Shown piece by piece: positions 41,216-54,706 of a stretch of DNA of 55,454 nt; position 1 is the first letter of the stretch; each line of letters begins with the position of its first letter. Below the pieces are notes generated by a model. It saw only the letters and a program-made list of their open reading frames with translations. It searched no databases and had not been told where the DNA came from. This DNA is from Synergistaceae bacterium (GTDB taxonomy: Bacteria > Synergistota > Synergistia > Synergistales > Aminobacteriaceae). The stretch lies in assembly GCA_031272145.1 (NCBI GenBank), contig JAISUL010000080.1, positions 1 to 55,454 on the forward strand. The letters are read 5' to 3'. The position numbers and the translations under genes are program-made.

Positions 41216-41689
41216 ATGGACGAGAAACTGTACGATGAAAAACTGGGACGTGTAGAAGACCGCCTGATGAGCAAGATCGAGGCGGTCGACGACAAGATCG
41301 AGTCGGTCAAGACCGAGCTCACGGGCAAGATCGAGTTGCTCGACGCCAAGATCGAGGCGGTCGACGCCAAAGTCATGACTTTGGACAAGACCCTGAATGA
41401 GTTCAGAGCCGAGATCAGAGCCGAGAATAAGGAGTTCAGAGCCGAGATTAAGGCCGATAACAGGGAGACGCGGGCGTCGTTCAGGAATAACATGATCGCC
41501 GCCGTGACGCTGAGCGTACCGATAATGTTCGGGACGCTCGGAATGATGAGCATCCTGAACCAGCGCAACGCGCCAGCCGAGTCTTTCCCGCGCCCGCGCG
41601 CAGCGCAGTACCAGACAGCGGCGCCCATAGAGCGGCCGGCCGTCGTCGAAAGCGCTGCCGCCAGCGCCGACGTCACGGCTCCCCGGTAG
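41216..41689 (+). CDS. Coiled-coil protein with C-terminal membrane helix, paralog 1
   Basis: A 157-residue protein. It begins MDEKLYDEKLGRVEDRLM. Residues about 20-95 are a coiled coil made of repeats such as KIEAVDDKIESVKTELTG and EFRAEIRAENK. A single membrane helix follows (MIAAVTLSVPIMFGTLGMMSIL), then an Ala/Pro-rich tail. The layout resembles the Bdr proteins of Borrelia (repeat coiled coil plus one helix), but this is an architectural likeness, not shown homology. AGGAGG stands before ATG. First of three near-identical tandem copies. Confidence 0.8.
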   Translation: MDEKLYDEKLGRVEDRLMSKIEAVDDKIESVKTELTGKIELLDAKIEAVDAKVMTLDKTLNEFRAEIRAENKEFRAEIKADNRETRASFRNNMIAAVTLSVPIMFGTLGMMSILNQRNAPAESFPRPRAAQYQTAAPIERPAVVESAAASADVTAPR

Positions 41690-41768
41690 CGGCGAGCGAG
41701 AAGACGGCGGAGACGTCTAGGCGGGGGCAAGGTTCAAATTGTGGGCGAGTTGAAGGAGGTGCGGCACT

Positions 41769-42146
41769 ATGGACGAGAAACTGTATGATGAAAAACTGGG
41801 ACGTGTAGAAGACCGCCTGATGGCGAAGATCGAGGCGGTCGACGCCAAAGTCGTGGCTTTGGACAAGACCATTAATGAGTTCAGGGCCGAGATCAGAGCC
41901 GATGTCAAGAGCGAGAACAGGGAGACGCGGGCATCGTTCAGAAGTAACATGATCGCCGCCGTGACGCTGAGCGTAACGATAATGTTCGGTACGCTAGGAA
42001 TGATGAGCATCCTGAACCAGCGCAACGCGCCAGCCGAGTCTTTCCCGCGCCCGCACGCAGCGCAGTACCAGACAGCGGCGCCCATAGAGCGGCCGGCCGT
42101 CGCCGAAGGCGCTGCCGCCAGCGCCGACGCCACTGCTCCCCGGTAG
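41769..42146 (+). CDS. Coiled-coil protein with C-terminal membrane helix, paralog 2
   Basis: Shortest copy (125 residues): same opening (MDEKLYDEKLGRVEDRLMAK), only one KIEAVDAKV-type unit, then EFRAEIRADVKSENRETRASF, the membrane helix MIAAVTLSVTIMFGTLGMM and the same tail. Its ribosome site and start region (AGGAGGTGCGGCACTATG) are identical to those of the other copies. Loss of coiled-coil units relative to paralogs 1 and 3 is in frame. Confidence 0.8.
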   Translation: MDEKLYDEKLGRVEDRLMAKIEAVDAKVVALDKTINEFRAEIRADVKSENRETRASFRSNMIAAVTLSVTIMFGTLGMMSILNQRNAPAESFPRPHAAQYQTAAPIERPAVAEGAAASADATAPR

Positions 42147-42202
42147 CGGCGAGCGAGAAGACAGCGGAGATATTGTGGACGAGTTGAAGGAGGTGCGGCA
42201 CT

Positions 42203-42709
42203 ATGGACGAGAAACTGTACGATGAAAAACTAGGACGCGCGGAAGACCGCCTGACGGGCAAGATCGAGGCGGTCAACGACAAGATCGAGGCGGTCAAGAC
42301 CGAGCTCACGGGTAAGATCGAGGCGGTCAACGACAAGATCGAGGCGGTCAAGACCGAGCTCACGGGCAAGATCGAGGCGGTCGACGCCAAAGTTATGACT
42401 TTGGACAAGACCCTGAATGAGTTCAGAGCCGAGATCAGAGCCGAGAATAAGGAGTTCAGAGCCGAGATCAAGGCCGATAACAGGGAGACGCGGGCGTCGT
42501 TCAGGAATAACATGATCGCCGCCGTGACGCTGAGCGTAACGATAATGTTCGGGACGCTCGGAATGATGAGCATCCTGAACCAGCGCAACGCGCCAGCCGA
42601 GTCTTTCCCGCGCCCGCGTGCAACGCAGTACCAGACAGCGGCGCCCATAGAGCGGCCAGCCGTCGCCGAAGGCGCTGCCGCCAGCGCCGACGTCACGGCT
42701 CCCCGGTAG
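42203..42709 (+). CDS. Coiled-coil protein with C-terminal membrane helix, paralog 3
   Basis: Longest copy (168 residues). After MDEKLYDEKLGRAEDRLTG the 18-residue unit KIEAVNDKIEAVKTELTG occurs twice in perfect succession, followed by a KIEAVDAKV half unit and the shared EFRAEIRAENK and EFRAEIKADNR pair. Membrane helix and tail match the other copies. Differences among the copies are mostly unit number, suggesting length change by recombination. Confidence 0.8.
   Translation: MDEKLYDEKLGRAEDRLTGKIEAVNDKIEAVKTELTGKIEAVNDKIEAVKTELTGKIEAVDAKVMTLDKTLNEFRAEIRAENKEFRAEIKADNRETRASFRNNMIAAVTLSVTIMFGTLGMMSILNQRNAPAESFPRPRATQYQTAAPIERPAVAEGAAASADVTAPR
42241..42380 (+). repeat. In-frame 54-bp tandem repeat in paralog 3
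   Basis: A 54-base unit encoding KIEAVNDKIEAVKTELTG is present twice (differences limited to about one base, GGC/GGT), plus a partial third. The unit is a multiple of three, so copy change alters coiled-coil length without breaking the frame. Confidence 0.85.
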
Positions 42710-42824: not shown

Positions 42825-44126
42825 ATGTTTGGGGCAAAAGAACAGTACCTGATCAGTTTCGTCGTGCCCGTTTACAACCGTGTGGAGCTTGTTCAACGGT
42901 GCGTCGACAGCATCCTGAGTGCTGGCGACGAACGGGTAGAAGTTATCATCGTTGACGACGCATCAACAGACGGCACTCCTGCCGTGTGTCGATCATATGC
43001 GGCGCGGCATGGCAACGTTCGTTTTGTGCAAATGCCGCTGAACGGAGGCCCTGGGGTTGCGCGCAACGCAGGGATGACGATCGCAAAAGGCGAGTTCATC
43101 TTCTTCGTGGACAGCGACGACACGGTAGCTACAGAAAACCTCGCACGTCTGCTCGGCGAATTGGAGTCTCACAGGGACGCCGACATCGTAGTGGGAAAGA
43201 CGGAATGGGAACCACCATTGACGCCGGCCCCTTCGGTGTCTGCCATAGATAATGCCGAATATTCTGATGCGCCGGAGCACGAGGTGTGGAGAAACGGCAA
43301 CGTTGTCTCTTTGTGCTCACTGTACAAAAGAAAGTTTTTGGAAGAAAACGGGATACGTTTTGCACGGCCTAGACTTGGTGAAGACGTACTGTTTATTTTG
43401 ACCAGCAGATTGTTCTTGGGGACGCTTTATCTGCTTCCGTTTACGATTTATCGTTACAATAATGACAGAGGGCACCCGCATTTTTTATCCATAGAAGCGT
43501 ACGAAAATTCTTCTGAGGTGCAGATAAAATACATGCGCATTCATTACACAGAACTGTTGCCTAAGGCAAAGCTAAGGTGGCAAAAATACGTACTTGATGC
43601 TTATTTGCTGTTAGAATTGTTGTATCGTCAGATGTATTTCACCGTCCCTGTGCCTCTTCTGACGTCGCATAGGGAGTACATGTTCATCTCTAAAGACGGC
43701 GTATGGAGCGATTATTTTATCCGAAACGGCTTCAGCGAGTGGGCAGCCCAGTGGCTGTACAACCTAAAGATAAAGTTGTATGCGCTGTCGGTCGGTTTCT
43801 CAAAAAATATCTTCATCTTCCCAGCGTCGGGCTGGGGACGTAATTTAGCGCTGTTCATTCGTCGCGCAGGATGGGACATGACCGTAAAAGGTTTCCTCGA
43901 CAACAACCCATCGTCACATCTCGCCCTCGAAGTAAACGAGATGGGCTATTGCCTTAAAAAGCCGGCGGAGTTTGATCCATCTAAGGAAATTGCCATCGTT
44001 ATTCACGGCGATCCAAGGGTGGCCGCGTCAATGGAAAAGCAGCTGGAACACCACGGCGGGGTGAAAAACGTCTCGTTCATCAACGCTATGGATACAGAAA
44101 GCAAGGATGGGTTCAATTTTGAATAA
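42825..44126 (+). CDS. Family 2 glycosyltransferase with Rossmann-like C-terminal region
   Basis: A GT-A inverting glycosyltransferase (433 residues): SFVVPVYNRVELVQRCVDSI, VEVIIVDDASTDGT, GPGVARNAGMTIAKGEFIFF and the metal-binding VDSDDTV. LGEDVLFIL is the expected E-D acceptor-side motif. The last 120 residues include IFIFPASGWGRNLALFIRRAGW and KGFLDNNPSSH, resembling the nucleotide-binding N-terminal region of sugar acetyltransferase-like PglD proteins. The same kind of module begins the gene products at 45668 and 47629. Base composition drops in GC within this gene, and it overlaps the next gene by 20 bases. Confidence 0.88.
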   Translation: MFGAKEQYLISFVVPVYNRVELVQRCVDSILSAGDERVEVIIVDDASTDGTPAVCRSYAARHGNVRFVQMPLNGGPGVARNAGMTIAKGEFIFFVDSDDTVATENLARLLGELESHRDADIVVGKTEWEPPLTPAPSVSAIDNAEYSDAPEHEVWRNGNVVSLCSLYKRKFLEENGIRFARPRLGEDVLFILTSRLFLGTLYLLPFTIYRYNNDRGHPHFLSIEAYENSSEVQIKYMRIHYTELLPKAKLRWQKYVLDAYLLLELLYRQMYFTVPVPLLTSHREYMFISKDGVWSDYFIRNGFSEWAAQWLYNLKIKLYALSVGFSKNIFIFPASGWGRNLALFIRRAGWDMTVKGFLDNNPSSHLALEVNEMGYCLKKPAEFDPSKEIAIVIHGDPRVAASMEKQLEHHGGVKNVSFINAMDTESKDGFNFE

Positions 44127-45667: not shown

Positions 45668-47614
45668 CTACGAATGGGCTGTACCTATAGTTCGTCCGCG
45701 CTTTTCAAGATATTCGTAGGTGCTCTCTGGGACAAGACCTCTCACTTCACCGAGCTTCCCATCCTGTAGCAGTGCTCTGACATTGGAGGCGCTAACAGGA
45801 CAGCCGGACATCTCCAGCCTCTTGATTTCCACGAAATCTACTCCGTAACTCGGTAGAATATCGCGCATGGTATCGTTATAGAAGCTTGTAACGGGGTCGA
45901 ACGGCTCACTCCCTGCGAAACGAACGGATATGTTCAAAATCGGCGCTATTTCCGACGCGAACATTCTCACGTCATAAGCGGCGTCGATCGACACGTCTGG
46001 GCGATCCTCCTTCTTAAAGTACCCTGGGAACGTTACTGTAGAGATGATGCACTGCCCGCTGCGCAAGACCGTGACATTCTTCAAATGCGCCACGCCACGC
46101 TTGACGAGCTCGATCCTATCAGCGAACGGGAATAGAGACTTGTCCTCTTCCACAACGAATATATACAGCCGATCGACCTGTTCGGCTGCGCGTTCAGCAA
46201 GATACATGTGGCCGAGCGTGAATGGGTTGCAATTCATAACTACAGCGCCGACCTTGCCTTCATCGCTAACCTTGTTCGCCTTCAGAAATTTAACGTATTC
46301 AGCGAGGTGGGGAATTGTCTGCGTCGTTACGGTTTTAAGCGATAAAGGCTCGCTGTTATGTAGTTCGGCAGATTTATCTCTGCTGAGGCGGGCAAATATA
46401 TTCCCATCTGACGAATCCACGCGTTCAAAGACGGCGCTATAGATGAAGTCCGCCGCGAGCGCGTAGCCGCGATGGCAGACATGGAGGTTGTCCAAAAACA
46501 CCTCGCCCATGCCGTGTGGACGGTCGAAGGCGCGTTGGAGGTCGTGAAAGAAAATATTCGGCCATTTGCATGTGTTGAAATTAGGGAGCTTAGGAAGAAA
46601 ATTCGAGTCCATAATGGTGACGACAACGTCGCCTGATTTCAGGTCGGCTTTGTTCAACACGCTCAGCAGAGTCTCCAAATTTTCAACGCCGAGCGCATAA
46701 CAGCGGACGCCAAAGTCACGCGTTGCGTTGAGTTTCGTTTGCAGTATGTTGCTTATAGCATGAACGTCATCGACGTAGGCACCCCTGCACTGGCAGTTGC
46801 CGACCAGATGCAGCGTTTTTTTATACGTACCACGTTCCCGAGCGGGAATATATCGATACCCGTTTAAGTAGTTTACGAATTCATTCCTGATGTCGCCGTA
46901 AACGTATATTCCGTTCTCGTACTTTATGACAACGTCCTCGGCTGTCAGGCAGCGGTAGTATTCCGTTGTCCAACGCTCTATATCGGAACACAATAGGCAG
47001 AATACTCTGTATTTTTCCGATTCTGGCCAGCGTATCATCATGTTGGCGGACGCTGAGAACATCTCCCATTGTGTGGGATTTTTCACGGCTTTAGCCGTTG
47101 GGCGTGGAAAGGCATGAAGCTGCGCGCTTGCTTGCGTCAACAGTTCCGACAGGTCGGCGCATACATCGTTTGGCGCGCGGTTAGCCGGGCAGTCCGTGGG
47201 TGTGTCGGCATCCAAAGAGGCAAGTAAATGTCCACTTACCTGGTCCGACTTCATCTCGCTTATTATGTCAACTATGGACACGATCGGCGTTTGCGTGTAT
47301 TTCCTAAGAGCGGACACGATTTCCCCAAGCGAAAAATACGGGGTGACGACTATAACGTCAGCCTCACCAAACGACCCAACTTTTTCGGGCGAAACGATTG
47401 GAACGTCATAAGGCGCGAGGCAACGCAAGTCAGCTGCCCTGTCCACGACGGCTACCACGGTGACATCATTGTGAATCTCCTCATAGAGAAGCTCTCCCAG
47501 CGTGCCAGCGCCGTAAATTAAGACGTTTGTCCAGCCCTTCTTCCGAAAGAACACAGGGAAAGAGGCTCCGGCGTTTTTAGCCTTCATCCAATGCGTAAGT
47601 ATTCGAGTGTACAA
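45668..47614 (-). CDS. Three-part protein: Rossmann module, SGNH-like domain, citrate-lyase-ligase-like domain
   Basis: A 648-residue protein with an unusual order. Residues 30-120: nucleotide-binding-like module (NVLIYGAGTLGELLYEE). Residues 267-396: SGNH/GDSL-like hydrolase region opening LHLVGNCQCRG, where the usual GDS serine is replaced by NC, and closing DNLHVCHRGYALAADFIY with the D-x-x-H pair. Residues 455-640: a close match to the nucleotidyltransferase domain of [citrate lyase] ligase CitC (VGAVVMNCNPFTLGHMYL with the GH of HxGH, FVVEEDKSLFPF, TVTFPGYF, AGSEPFDPVTSFYN, SGCPVSASNVRALL). No citrate lyase genes are near. The TTG start has GGTGGAG five bases upstream. Function unknown; adenylylation of a glycan or small acid is possible. 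Confidence 0.8.
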   Translation of the reverse strand: MYTRILTHWMKAKNAGASFPVFFRKKGWTNVLIYGAGTLGELLYEEIHNDVTVVAVVDRAADLRCLAPYDVPIVSPEKVGSFGEADVIVVTPYFSLGEIVSALRKYTQTPIVSIVDIISEMKSDQVSGHLLASLDADTPTDCPANRAPNDVCADLSELLTQASAQLHAFPRPTAKAVKNPTQWEMFSASANMMIRWPESEKYRVFCLLCSDIERWTTEYYRCLTAEDVVIKYENGIYVYGDIRNEFVNYLNGYRYIPARERGTYKKTLHLVGNCQCRGAYVDDVHAISNILQTKLNATRDFGVRCYALGVENLETLLSVLNKADLKSGDVVVTIMDSNFLPKLPNFNTCKWPNIFFHDLQRAFDRPHGMGEVFLDNLHVCHRGYALAADFIYSAVFERVDSSDGNIFARLSRDKSAELHNSEPLSLKTVTTQTIPHLAEYVKFLKANKVSDEGKVGAVVMNCNPFTLGHMYLAERAAEQVDRLYIFVVEEDKSLFPFADRIELVKRGVAHLKNVTVLRSGQCIISTVTFPGYFKKEDRPDVSIDAAYDVRMFASEIAPILNISVRFAGSEPFDPVTSFYNDTMRDILPSYGVDFVEIKRLEMSGCPVSASNVRALLQDGKLGEVRGLVPESTYEYLEKRGRTIGTAHS

Positions 47615-47628
47615 CTTACTCCACCTTT

Positions 47629-48462
47629 CTACATAGCGTACAGTACGTGCTCATAAGACGAACACCCGTGGAGGCGAAAATATATCTTCGCATCCGGCAT
47701 CACTGTTACGTTCTCGAACCCCTTGTCGCTGACGGTTTTTCTAAGCGCAGCAGCGTTGCCAGCGTCTGGCTCGAATGCGAAGACGTGCCTCCATCGTCTG
47801 CCCGTCTCACGCGCGAAGTCAATGATCGTGTCGCCAGCATAGGCACCGCAGTCAACGAAGGTCTCGTTCGCGTCTACGCGCCAGGGGGCGGGGCTGATAA
47901 CGTCCTTCGGGAAGTAATGTTCTCCAGAAAGACAGTTCAGCAGATATTTGCAGTCGTGAGTGATTCTAACGTTCAGAAACGCGACCATAGCCTCGCGCGA
48001 CCGCTGGTCGGCCAGCATGAAGTACGTCTCGTCAAAGCCGTCACGATGAGAGAGCACGTATTCATATGTTATGTCGAGGCGCGCCGGCGGCTCGTCGTAA
48101 GTACAGGCGGCGTCCAGGACGAATATCCTATCGACGCACCCGCTGTCCAAAATGGTTTTGAACCGCCGCGTCAACAAGGAGTCGGCCATCGTGAACGCCA
48201 GAAGGACGTTGAATTTTTTCAGCCCAATGCGGCTTAAGCCACTCAGCGGGACGACCTTCATTCCGTGAAATTCGGCGTGGGGACGGTAGTAGTCATCAGT
48301 CACGCATACACCTTGCACTGCGACCCCGTGGCCTTTCAAGAAGCCAAACGCCCTCTCTGCGATGTCCCCAGAGCCGTAGAGAACCAGCGGCAGGTCGGAG
48401 TTCACAACCTCTTCGGCCAGTTCGTGCCTGCGGTCCTTGCGTTCAAGCATCATTTCGATCAT
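47629..48462 (-). CDS. FkbM-type methyltransferase, truncated, with Rossmann-like N-terminal module
   Basis: A 277-residue protein. The N-terminal module LVLYGSGDIAERAFGFL resembles those in the neighbouring gene products. The methyltransferase begins at ETFVDCGAYAGDTIIDFA and HVFAFEPDAGNAAAL, an FkbM pattern. It stops at SSYEHVLYAM, about 70-80 residues before the family's usual DiEGaE and aIs.YH motifs. The stop is followed at once by the next gene, with no remnant visible in other frames. It is likely nonfunctional as a methyltransferase, or a half-domain. Confidence 0.72.
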   Translation of the reverse strand: MIEMMLERKDRRHELAEEVVNSDLPLVLYGSGDIAERAFGFLKGHGVAVQGVCVTDDYYRPHAEFHGMKVVPLSGLSRIGLKKFNVLLAFTMADSLLTRRFKTILDSGCVDRIFVLDAACTYDEPPARLDITYEYVLSHRDGFDETYFMLADQRSREAMVAFLNVRITHDCKYLLNCLSGEHYFPKDVISPAPWRVDANETFVDCGAYAGDTIIDFARETGRRWRHVFAFEPDAGNAAALRKTVSDKGFENVTVMPDAKIYFRLHGCSSYEHVLYAM

Positions 48463-48495: not shown

Positions 48496-49458
48496 TCACG
48501 CGCTCCATTCGCTTATCTCCCGCTTCGATATGCGCCAAGGCGCAGCGCACTCGTCGATCTTGCAAAACCGGCAAAACGGTATTGGACGCGCAAGAAATCT
48601 CAAAATCTCCCGTCCGTTTCCCGCCGTGTAGATGTCGATCGAATCCTTATCTGTGACCGGAACGGACTTCTCGAAGTATTTGTTGAACAAATGAACATAA
48701 GCCGCCGACGTACACGTGTAAAGACGCCCGTTGCGCAAGACGATGCATTCGTTCCCGCTGTGGCAGTAGGCAAAGTTCAGCATTGCCGACCCTTTGCCCT
48801 CCAGATCGATGCCGAAGTGATAAAACCTCTTTTGATCTGCTCCCTCAAAATCGGAAAACGGACGCACTTCGACGCCGAAAGACGCTCCTTTCGCCTTTGC
48901 CCTTCGGAACTGCTCCTCCATGCATGGATAGACAGTGACGACCACGGCTATCTTGTTCTCCGAGCATGAACGCCAGAAACCGTCGTCCTTGCCGTTCAGC
49001 AGAAGGCCGTTTGTCACTAGCTCGACGGGTGCTTTGGAAGCGTCGGGGAAGGCTTCCCGCGCCGCTGTGAAAAACTCCTCCACCTTGGGATGCAGCAGAG
49101 GCTCACCGCCCATGAGGTACATTGCCTCGATCTTGCCGTCAAACAGCTTCGCTATCCGCTGCGTGTCCCTCCTGAACGTCTCGAGGTCGAGAAAAAATTC
49201 CTCGGCCAGAGGCGCGAAATGCGAGCACTCGGCGCAGTTGAGGTTGCAGTGGTCGGTCAGGTGGACGGCAAACTTCAGCTGCTTCCGCGTAGGCTTGGCA
49301 CCCATTCTGAACACCGGTAAATATATTCCCTCGTAGACGTACCGTTTCACTCTATATGTCAGGCGGCGGCGGATGATCCCAAGCGTGCGGAACAGCCCCT
49401 CCTGCTTGAGGTAGCGGTGGAACGAGTCGCCCACGATGTAGCGCAAGGTTCTAAACAT
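48496..49458 (-). CDS. Radical SAM protein
   Basis: A 320-residue radical SAM enzyme: cluster motif CNLNCAEC (Cys 71, 75, 78; CxxxCxxC), SAM motif YLMGGEPLLHP, then ELVTNGLLL. The C-terminal Cys cluster (Cys in FAYCHSGNEC and FCRFCKIDEC) indicates one or more auxiliary Fe-S clusters like those of SPASM or twitch proteins. In a glycan cluster it may modify a sugar or an attached group (inference). A 60-residue helical N-terminal region precedes the barrel. Confidence 0.88.
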   Translation of the reverse strand: MFRTLRYIVGDSFHRYLKQEGLFRTLGIIRRRLTYRVKRYVYEGIYLPVFRMGAKPTRKQLKFAVHLTDHCNLNCAECSHFAPLAEEFFLDLETFRRDTQRIAKLFDGKIEAMYLMGGEPLLHPKVEEFFTAAREAFPDASKAPVELVTNGLLLNGKDDGFWRSCSENKIAVVVTVYPCMEEQFRRAKAKGASFGVEVRPFSDFEGADQKRFYHFGIDLEGKGSAMLNFAYCHSGNECIVLRNGRLYTCTSAAYVHLFNKYFEKSVPVTDKDSIDIYTAGNGREILRFLARPIPFCRFCKIDECAAPWRISKREISEWSA

Positions 49459-49473
49459 GCCAGGTCACCGTGG

Positions 49474-50661
49474 CTATACCAAGCCGTGGATGCCGTACAA
49501 CAGAACAGGACGCCGCTCTCGATCCAAGACCGGTATTTGCTTGATGCTGCCGCGCAGCTTGGAGAACGCGCTGTCCAAAGCGTCAATGTCGATGGTGACG
49601 CCATTCCTGTTGCATATGCCGCCACAGGTCTCTCTTTCGCACGCGCGCTCTCTCTCGTGTCGCTCAACGTCGCCGCGCGTTATGACGCCGACGTAGCGGC
49701 CCGCCTTATCCACCACGATCAACAGGTGGAAGCCCTTCCTTCTGAAAAGCCAGAACCGTGCGTCATCGACAAGGGCATCTTCATGCAGCAAAATCTCCTG
49801 CGGTATCTCCCTGTAACCGAGGCTTGAGTCCAAGATCAGGTCTTTGCTGGCGCTATACTTTATGCCGTCAGCAAACATGGCTTCGTCCCAATCCGAAAAA
49901 CCATCGCCGTTCCAAACAGGTGCTGTTAGTGTCCCCATAGATCCGAACAGCCCGGCGCTCTGAGCGTACCCTTTGAGAAGGCTGCTCTGAAGCCACGCGC
50001 CGTCGAACGGCATGAGAAACTCCGCCTTATCCTCGCTCTGGCGGAATACGGTTACAAAAAACAAGTCTCCGTCACGCTCGGTGTTTACAAACTCCGGGGA
50101 GTAATAATGCGAAAAACCCGATTTGTCTGACTGCACATAAAGCCCAAGAATTTCGTAACGGTTCGCCAAAGCCAGCTCTAACAGTAGCTTAGGCGTGTAA
50201 TGAAAATAACCGTGGTTGATGCACCCCTGCGTTGGATAGAAACCGATGAGCACTCCTCCCGCGCGGCATAGGTCGTGCATGTTCCGAAATACCTCGTACT
50301 GGTTGAAACAGTGCTCGGCCGTGCCGAAGTTCGTGACCAAGTCGAACTCCTTATTAAACCCATACTCGCTCTTTATGCTGCGGTTCAAGTCGAAAACGAT
50401 GGCACCGTTTCTGCCGTCGGCGTCTATGCATTGATAGTCGCATATACCCAAGGCAGCGTAGCCGGCAGCCACGTGCGTCAAAGTGAAGTTGGCATCTCCG
50501 GATATGTCGCGCAACCGCTTTTCGCAGGCTTCAATGTTGTCGCCCAGATCCTGAGAACCTAGCTCGATAACAGAACGGAAGTCACATCCATTCTTATCGC
50601 GCATGAACCCCTGTTTTTTCATCTCGGCTAGGAAAAACCAAGCACCAACTGACATTCCCAT
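49474..50661 (-). CDS. Methyltransferase-like protein fused to a CBS-domain pair
   Basis: 395 residues. Residues 31-215 look like a class I methyltransferase (VIELGSQDLGDN motif I, FDLVTNFGTAEHCFN, LCRAGGVLIGFYPTQGCINH). Residues 285-390 resemble a CBS pair: REIPQEILLHEDALVDDARFW split by a helix, GFHLLIVVDKAGRYVGVITRGDVERH, then IKQIPVLDRERRPVLLYG. CBS pairs sense adenosyl nucleotides, so the methyltransferase may be regulated by SAM, AMP or ATP. I know of no standard family with this fusion. It lies between the DUF4422 and radical SAM genes on one strand. Confidence 0.7.
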   Translation of the reverse strand: MGMSVGAWFFLAEMKKQGFMRDKNGCDFRSVIELGSQDLGDNIEACEKRLRDISGDANFTLTHVAAGYAALGICDYQCIDADGRNGAIVFDLNRSIKSEYGFNKEFDLVTNFGTAEHCFNQYEVFRNMHDLCRAGGVLIGFYPTQGCINHGYFHYTPKLLLELALANRYEILGLYVQSDKSGFSHYYSPEFVNTERDGDLFFVTVFRQSEDKAEFLMPFDGAWLQSSLLKGYAQSAGLFGSMGTLTAPVWNGDGFSDWDEAMFADGIKYSASKDLILDSSLGYREIPQEILLHEDALVDDARFWLFRRKGFHLLIVVDKAGRYVGVITRGDVERHERERACERETCGGICNRNGVTIDIDALDSAFSKLRGSIKQIPVLDRERRPVLLYGIHGLV

Positions 50662-50714: not shown

Positions 50715-52285
<1,571 letters not shown>

Positions 52286-53854: not shown

Positions 53855-54706
53855 TCACTCCCCCTTGCCGCCGGGCAGCCGCGCGTTGACGCACAGATGC
53901 CAGCCGAGACGCCGTTCCAGAAATCGAAAGAACGGGCGCGGGAGAATATTAAAGTACCATATATATATATATATATAGGCCTTATATTTCTCGACGTCGT
54001 ACGGGAATATGTGATCCACGAACATAGACTCTATGGTCATGCCGGAGAGCAGCGTCTCCACCGACCTTTTCGTGTAGGTGTAGGTCACGGGGCAGCCGGT
54101 CTGGGCCTCGGAGTTCTCGGCTATCCACTTGTCCAGCGCCCAGAATCGGAACCCCCGCGAGGCGAGGATCGCCCCGACCTTCCATGATATGCGGTGGTAG
54201 ACCATGAGCTTGAGGAGGCTCTCCGCGTCCATGTACTTTTTGATCTGCTCTATGGCAGCCCTCGGGTGCGGCGTGTGGTGGATGACGCCGAAGCTGTAGA
54301 CGAGGTCGTACCTCTCGACCGGGACTGTGCTCGACAGCTCCTCGGCGTTCGCCCGATAGAATCTTATCCTGTCGGTCAGGCCGAAGACCTCGGCGCGGCG
54401 TGCGGCTATTTTGAGCGACTCGTCGGACAGGTCGACCGCCGTCACGTCGGCGCCGGCGCGGGCGAAGCTGATCGTGTCCGTGCCGATGCCGCAGCCAACC
54501 TCCAGAACTTTTTTGCCCCGCCAGCGGTCGAACTCGGCGAACAGGGGTATGTGGGGCTCGACGAAGTACTTCCGCTTCTCGACCTCGTCGAAGTACTCCT
54601 TCGTGCCGACCTCCTTGTTTGAGTGCCGGATGTTGCACGGACGCGCGTTCCAGTATGAGCGCACGTCGTCTATGGTTTTGGCGTCAAAAGGCGATGAAGG
54701 CATCAC
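53855..54706 (-). CDS. SAM-dependent methyltransferase with TA repeat near its 3' end
   Basis: A 283-residue class I methyltransferase: VLEVGCGIGTDTISFARAGA (motif I), VTAVDLSDESLKIA, RYDLVYSFGVIHHTPHP, then the extended C-terminal part. Near residue 243 a TA repeat codes for AYIYIYIWYF and the protein continues RPFFRFLERRLGWHL. The frame is open as read, so this copy is ON. ATG 54706 overlaps the upstream gene's stop by four bases. Confidence 0.86.
   Translation of the reverse strand: MMPSSPFDAKTIDDVRSYWNARPCNIRHSNKEVGTKEYFDEVEKRKYFVEPHIPLFAEFDRWRGKKVLEVGCGIGTDTISFARAGADVTAVDLSDESLKIAARRAEVFGLTDRIRFYRANAEELSSTVPVERYDLVYSFGVIHHTPHPRAAIEQIKKYMDAESLLKLMVYHRISWKVGAILASRGFRFWALDKWIAENSEAQTGCPVTYTYTKRSVETLLSGMTIESMFVDHIFPYDVEKYKAYIYIYIWYFNILPRPFFRFLERRLGWHLCVNARLPGGKGE
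53959..53977 (-). repeat. TA dinucleotide run of 19 nt in coding sequence
   Basis: Nine and a half AT units inside the methyltransferase gene. Gain or loss of a unit would replace the last 35 or so residues. Confidence 0.9.

Follow-up and report, generated by a model that had tools for sequence, protein, structure and literature searches.

A citrate lyase ligase-type domain joined to an SGNH-like domain in a bacterial glycan locus, with a possible role in sugar acylation

The fusion gene and its surroundings

The window, by which we mean the whole stretch of 55,454 nucleotides analysed here, carries on its reverse strand an ORF (45668-47614) that starts with TTG and encodes a product of 648 residues. 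This ORF closes a tight run of four genes, which are separated by gaps of 15, 33 and 14 bp. The features of the run and of the encoded protein are the following:

49474..50661 (-): methyltransferase-like protein with a CBS domain, 395 aa, same operon (PF00571, 6e-7); 15-bp gap to the next gene
48496..49458 (-): radical SAM protein, 320 aa, same operon (PF04055)
47629..48462 (-): Rossmann-like plus FkbM-like methyltransferase, 277 aa, same operon (TIGR01444, E=2.6e-7); 14-bp gap
47619..47628 (-): Shine-Dalgarno sequence AAAGGTGGAG, just 5' of the TTG start of the fusion (read directly)
45668..47614 (-): fusion of a Rossmann (PglD_N-like), an SGNH-like (Cys) and a CitC-type nucleotidyltransferase domain, 648 aa (ORF and profile searches)
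47240..47614 (-): residues 1-125, Rossmann-like module with likeness to the PglD/NeuD N-terminal domain (alignment; PF17836)
46904..47239 (-): residues 126-237, linker ahead of the SGNH domain (sequences compared by eye)
46415..46903 (-): residues 238-400, SGNH-like domain with Ser replaced by Cys (family profiles)
46793..46795 (-): codon of Cys274 at the nucleophile position, in G-N-C-Q-C-R-G (family alignments)
46481..46492 (-): Asp375-His378, SGNH block V, in DNLHVCHRGY (invariant in two family alignments)
45707..46252 (-): residues 455-636, Citrate_ly_lig, PF08218 (profile search)

Around the run, the G+C content drops to 51-55% over about 42.5-52.5 kb, versus 61-68% across most of the remaining window, and the same stretch holds glycosyltransferase genes (GT2 at 42825 and DUF4422 at 50969), which is what a glycan island of acquired origin would be expected to show. 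The glycan setting that an earlier note on this DNA had given to the fusion holds. A (GA)28 repeat is found at 50990-51045 (-), near the 3' end of the DUF4422 ORF (50969-52285), the frame of which stops just past the repeat while another frame continues (VFALGVLSKLFYTSVLPNKG), as in a phase-variable gene. An (AT)9.5 repeat at 53959-53977, within a methyltransferase ORF (53855-54706), is read as IYIYIYI, and three tandem paralogous small ORFs with internal repeats, coiled-coil-like in character, occupy 41216-42709 (41216-41689, 41769-42146 and 42203-42709).

Domains of the fusion protein

The C-terminal domain was identified by PF08218, which covers residues 455-636 over the whole model (1-182 of 182, E=1.2e-63). 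This match bears out the description of a 648-residue protein ending in a CitC-type domain and places within the CitC family the segment that the earlier note had assigned to it (residues 455-640). CitC, the citrate lyase ligase, activates acetate with ATP and then passes it to a thiol, that of an ACP; it belongs to the carboxylate ligases and not to the nucleotidyltransferases that act on phosphates. The CitC model TIGR00124 aligns to the fusion at model positions 120-331 of 335 only (200 bits, cut-off 262) and, since positions 1-119 are unmatched, the N-terminal acetyltransferase (GNAT) half of CitC is missing. The identity of the domain to CitC is 41-56%, and 43 residues are kept in at least 85% of both the SGNH-linked and the genuine CitC domains, including those of the motifs NxNPxTxGH and SASxVR (NCNPFTLGH at 461-469 and SASNVR at 608-613 in the window protein). 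The single systematic difference is at position 522, occupied by Tyr in 27 of 27 genuine CitC, by Phe in 13 of 15 linked domains and by Cys in the window protein. Generic cytidylyltransferase-family models also match the domain (TIGR00125, PF01467), and the TmcAL family PF05636 gives an E value of 0.04 with 13.6 bits, under its 27-bit cut-off. In a full-length AF2 model, which was built from three sequences and of which the CitC-type domain is the only usable part, this domain has a fold like that of phosphopantetheine adenylyltransferase (Z 18.4). In a tree of 42 CitC-type domains, where some long branches meet at the split and the inner order is not to be trusted, all 15 SGNH-linked domains fall on one side of a branch supported at 98/93, and the genuine CitC, same-phylum ones included, on the opposite side. 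A first tree, made without the two-gene pairs, separated linked from genuine domains at 96/96.

The middle region was not detected as SGNH-like by Pfam in the window protein, and its assignment comes from family profiles. A profile made from six relatives, with the window protein excluded, finds residues 239-395 (E=1.9e-32 against 1000 shuffles), and the family profiles match solved SGNH enzymes (1yzf, E=1.4e-4; 7ddy, 4.9e-4; 9otv, 6.8e-4), TesA more weakly (0.024), and also retrieve unfused SGNH proteins. With a profile of the Cys-bearing members only, SGNH enzymes are found weakly, chiefly via block V (4rw0, 0.0057). In the structure matches, the Cys position is aligned with the GDS serine and D375/H378 with block V. 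Judged from these profiles, residues 238-400 are SGNH-like, as had been proposed, and the loss of the GDS serine was read correctly: the block I GxS serine is absent and Cys274 stands there. The DxxH of block V is present, with D375 and H378 invariant in the family alignments, and blocks II (Gly) and III (Asn) have no clear alignment in the window domain, for which the AF2 model is weak. SGNH enzymes are the top fold matches of a model of this domain alone (7ddy first, Z 7.8; 1yzf second, Z 7.6), but the model is weak (pLDDT 51, pTM 0.53) and these matches are tied with unrelated folds, so the SGNH assignment rests on the sequence profiles. The GNCQ motif prompted us to consider the middle domain as a WcbI, a reading that was rejected, given that the Pfam search, which divergent WcbI members could escape, returned no match at E<=1 and that block V, DxxHxxxxG, is SGNH-like.

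The cysteine is a constant feature of the family in the window's phylum, being found at the nucleophile position in 17 of 17 primary SGNH domains from 14 genomes; among these, the His is kept wherever it is covered and the Asp in all but two. A Ser is found there in 29 of 29 unfused SGNH proteins, which belong to another phylum and are only weak matches, such that relatedness and linkage are confounded in this comparison. The second copies of tandem SGNH proteins carry D, G, N, S or T at this position, which suggests a binding or structural role for the copies without a nucleophile. Such second copies (D, G, N or T) were seen in the tandem proteins L106, L110, L109 and L112.

At the N-terminus, PF17836 matches two of six aligned members (best 2.3e-7) and leaves the window copy unmatched; residues 1-125 thus bear a weak likeness to PglD_N-type Rossmann modules and correspond to the Rossmann module of the earlier note. 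By eye, the linker (126-237) contains a ...YxDIExxxxEY... stretch that is present in relatives too. The Pfam search found no hexapeptide-repeat acetyltransferase domain in the window fusion, and a search of the genome contigs with residues 1-442 gave no relatives. None of the fusions has a transmembrane segment (the maximum 19-residue hydropathy of the window protein is 1.43), as would be expected for an ATP-using cytoplasmic enzyme.

Recurrence of the pairing and its neighbourhoods

The SGNH family is carried by 14 of 188 genomes of the window's phylum, and nine proteins of the phylum fuse it to a CitC-type domain: that of the window and those of G057, G166, G170, G171, G172, G174, G178 and G184, the G174 one being interrupted by a TAG. 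The two domains are encoded by two overlapping genes in G004 and G032. Some family members have two SGNH domains in tandem, and tandem proteins with the Cys form and no CitC-type domain in their ORF are found in G004, G032, G145, G171 and G183. Outside the phylum, the pairing occurs in three Vibrio fusions with Ser as nucleophile and in a fusion of 911 residues from the deltaproteobacterium Smac51, also a Ser form, in which a GDS motif at the N-terminus is combined with TPR repeats and a CitC-type domain. As Ser is found in some linked forms, the thiol of Cys is a trait of a lineage and not a requirement for the pairing. The Smac51 protein is plasmid-borne (L038 1-2736) and annotated as hypothetical, with a C-terminal part of no recognised kind. 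Besides the fusions, a profile search of 398 genomes from the Vibrio phylum gave weakly related unfused proteins alone, and a scan of viral contigs with the mixed SGNH alignment found nothing. A fusion of SGNH and CitC-type domains, for which the earlier note had proposed a gene-neighbourhood analysis, recurs in the phylum, in Vibrio and in Smac51. In the open-licence literature, we found no paper pairing citrate lyase ligase with SGNH and no such fusion in polysaccharide biosynthesis, in line with the earlier note, which knew of no described function for this architecture. We conclude that the architecture is real, recurrent and apparently undescribed.

About half of the fusions (six) are surrounded by glycan loci, and several of these stand among nonulosonic-acid or acyl-activation genes, some of the gene names in the G184, G166, G171 and G172 loci having been read by eye. 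The G184 fusion is surrounded by NeuB, NeuC, a second NeuB-like and two FkbM-like genes, and adjoins a relative of the window gene at 47629..48462. Before the G166 fusion are NeuC-like, NeuB-like, NeuD-like (PglD_N plus hexapeptide), WbuX, PseF-like and CBS-nucleotidyltransferase genes. The neighbours in G171 are NeuB-like, NeuD-like, an AMP-binding enzyme, an ACP-like protein, an FkbM methyltransferase and two SGNH-family proteins, and those in G172 are an AMP-binding enzyme, LuxE-like and LuxC-like proteins and a polysaccharide deacetylase. The G057 locus has glycosyltransferase-like genes and, two genes upstream of the fusion, a radical SAM protein that is 32% identical to that of the window. 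No evident glycan cluster surrounds the fusions of G170, G174 and G178, the G004 pair or the Vibrio loci.

Homologs of citD/E/F/X were found neither in the 55-kb window nor in any tested fusion or SGNH locus, while each of four genuine citC control genes adjoins citD. In these controls CitC stands with citrate lyase genes, as the earlier note had described, and at the tested loci the fusions do not. Its remark that citrate genes are missing nearby is accurate for the window and does not extend to the genome, since a fused CitD-CitE and CitF are encoded on another contig (C29). These genes lie at L025 5758-8516, beside a TRAP-type transporter.

Candidate function and comparison with known systems

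We propose, with a probability of roughly 0.48, that the fusion works as a soluble acyltransferase that needs no CoA and belongs to an operon for glycan modification. The CitC-type domain would form an acyl-adenylate from bound ATP and a small carboxylic acid, either acetate, the substrate of CitC, or an acid akin to it. The acyl group would then move to the SGNH nucleophile, as a thioester on Cys274 here and onto Ser in the Vibrio and deltaproteobacterial forms, with Asp375 and His378 activating the nucleophile in a hand-over akin to that of acetyl to a thiol by CitC. Finally, the SGNH domain would pass the acyl group to a sugar hydroxyl or amino group, giving an acylated surface glycan; this sugar is probably linked to a nucleotide or a lipid, and the PglD-like module at the N-terminus may hold it. 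We infer every chemical step of this route (acid, acyl-adenylate, Cys274 thioester, sugar) from the combined precedents of CitC, the SGNH domains of OatA, PatB and DltD, TmcAL and WcbI. Between the two activities offered by the earlier note, acid activation as an adenylate is better supported, because the domain retains the residues conserved in genuine CitC and the SGNH superfamily includes acyltransferases; the making of a nucleotide-linked group stays as a rival. Counted against this proposal are the Vibrio and Smac51 pairings with Ser, the five Cys-SGNH tandem proteins without a CitC-type domain, the loci that lack an evident glycan cluster, the predominance of hydrolases among SGNH proteins, the indistinct blocks II and III, the weak AF2 model of the SGNH domain and the confounding in the comparison with unfused Ser proteins. 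A wider proposal, that the CitC-type adenylation domain is a third kind of donor module, charging SGNH in cis by way of a lineage-wide Ser to Cys thioester for CoA-independent sugar acylation in the cytoplasm, is more tentative, and we would sooner bet against it than for it.

The proximity to CitC raises the question of whether the fusion could be the citrate lyase ligase of the organism, scattered from its operon. The genome encodes CitDE and CitF on C29 and has no stand-alone CitC, and the fusion is its only PF08218 protein besides a CoaD-like match. However, the fusion lacks the GNAT half and scores below the TIGR00124 cut-off, and its CitC-type domain branches with the SGNH-linked domains, not with genuine CitC. 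Moreover, neither CitG nor CitX, which would make the prosthetic group, nor a stand-alone CitC was found in the window's genome, which is about 98% complete, so that a missing contig is possible. Position 14 of CitD, at which the Ser is the known attachment site, is Arg in this genome, with the neighbouring Ser retained; the lyase has possibly ceased to use the usual prosthetic group. Vibrio 99-8-1 carries two genuine CitC besides its fusion, and in V. rotiferianus the fusion is the sole protein with a full PF08218 match. As CitG, CitX and another CitC were not found, Ser14 of CitD is lost and the two Vibrio genomes agree, the fusion is unlikely to serve citrate lyase; the ligase role was rejected on domain content, the tree, the missing CitG/CitX and the change in CitD, and we regard a scattered ligase as very improbable.

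Other divisions of labour between the two domains were also considered. Given that CitC itself acylates the thiol of an ACP, on CitD, the CitC-type domain might charge an ACP or a CoA-like thiol, the SGNH domain then being a thioesterase or transferase acting on the carrier. The ACP-like protein, AMP-binding enzyme and two SGNH-family proteins of G171 and the LuxE/LuxC-like acyl enzymes of G172 would fit such a role, but an ACP was seen neither in the operon of the window nor at the loci of G166, G184 and G057, and the fusion or overlap of the domains suggests a direct hand-over; we hold it to be improbable, at about one chance in six. A domain that, like CoaD or TagD, starts from a phosphate and yields an NDP-linked sugar or acid, with the SGNH domain trimming or esterifying the product, would agree with the phosphopantetheine adenylyltransferase-like fold, the generic family matches and the neighbouring nucleotide-sugar pathway genes. 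Nevertheless, the domain is far nearer to CitC, a carboxylate ligase, than to any nucleotide-sugar enzyme (1e-63, with the 43 shared conserved residues), which makes this an unlikely activity, at about one chance in seven. SGNH proteins are mostly hydrolases, and the SGNH domain could be a deacylase whose freed acid is recycled by the CitC-type domain, or a non-catalytic, substrate-binding module, as may occur in the family given the tandem second copies that lost the nucleophile. Yet the primary copies keep the nucleophile and the His in every covered case, and joining an activator that consumes ATP to a hydrolase would be futile if the two were not uncoupled, so that such roles seem doubtful, at about one chance in eight.

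To our knowledge, the known SGNH acyltransferases of bacterial glycans are supplied with acyl groups by partners in the membrane, which for the most part draw on acyl-CoA. If the proposal is true, a soluble partner that adenylates the acid would be a different route of acyl supply, usable for acids without CoA esters, and a domain labelled citrate lyase ligase by annotation pipelines would gain a new role. With the natural Ser to Cys change across a whole SGNH lineage tied to this partner, the mechanism lends itself to a direct test by mass spectrometry.

Among known systems, CitC (EC 6.2.1.22, TIGR00124/PF08218) resembles the fusion over the whole C-terminal domain, with NxNPxTxGH and SASxVR; it differs in having an N-terminal acetyltransferase half where the fusion has the Rossmann and SGNH modules, whereas the fusion has its domain on a separate branch, no Tyr at position 522 and no citrate lyase genes nearby. 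The PglD/NeuD sugar acetyltransferases share the PglD_N-like Rossmann module and, in relatives of the fusion, the nonulosonic-acid neighbourhoods, but the fusion is without their left-handed beta-helix acetyltransferase domain and acetyl-CoA is not expected to be its donor. WcbI, a putative CPS acetyltransferase of Burkholderia with an active-site Cys14 near His201 (PMC4104973), is likewise a polysaccharide-locus protein with an active-site Cys; unlike the window protein, it is a CoA-binding protein and has no activating domain joined to it. TmcAL (PF05636), also a HIGH-type nucleotidyltransferase, uses acetate and ATP to form acetyl-AMP as a non-CoA acetyl donor (PMC7408541), but it acts on tRNA and has no SGNH domain, and the window domain matches its family weakly. 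The SGNH domains of OatA, PatB and DltD take the acyl group from a fused or partner donor module and pass it to the glycan through an acyl-enzyme (PMC12148441). The AT3-SGNH and MBOAT/SGNH systems (OatA, PatAB, DltBD) thus share with the fusion a donor module that would feed a glycan-acylating SGNH domain; their donor is a membrane protein using acyl-CoA, whereas the putative donor of the fusion is a soluble adenylating domain, joined to an SGNH domain with a Cys nucleophile in a protein without a membrane segment.
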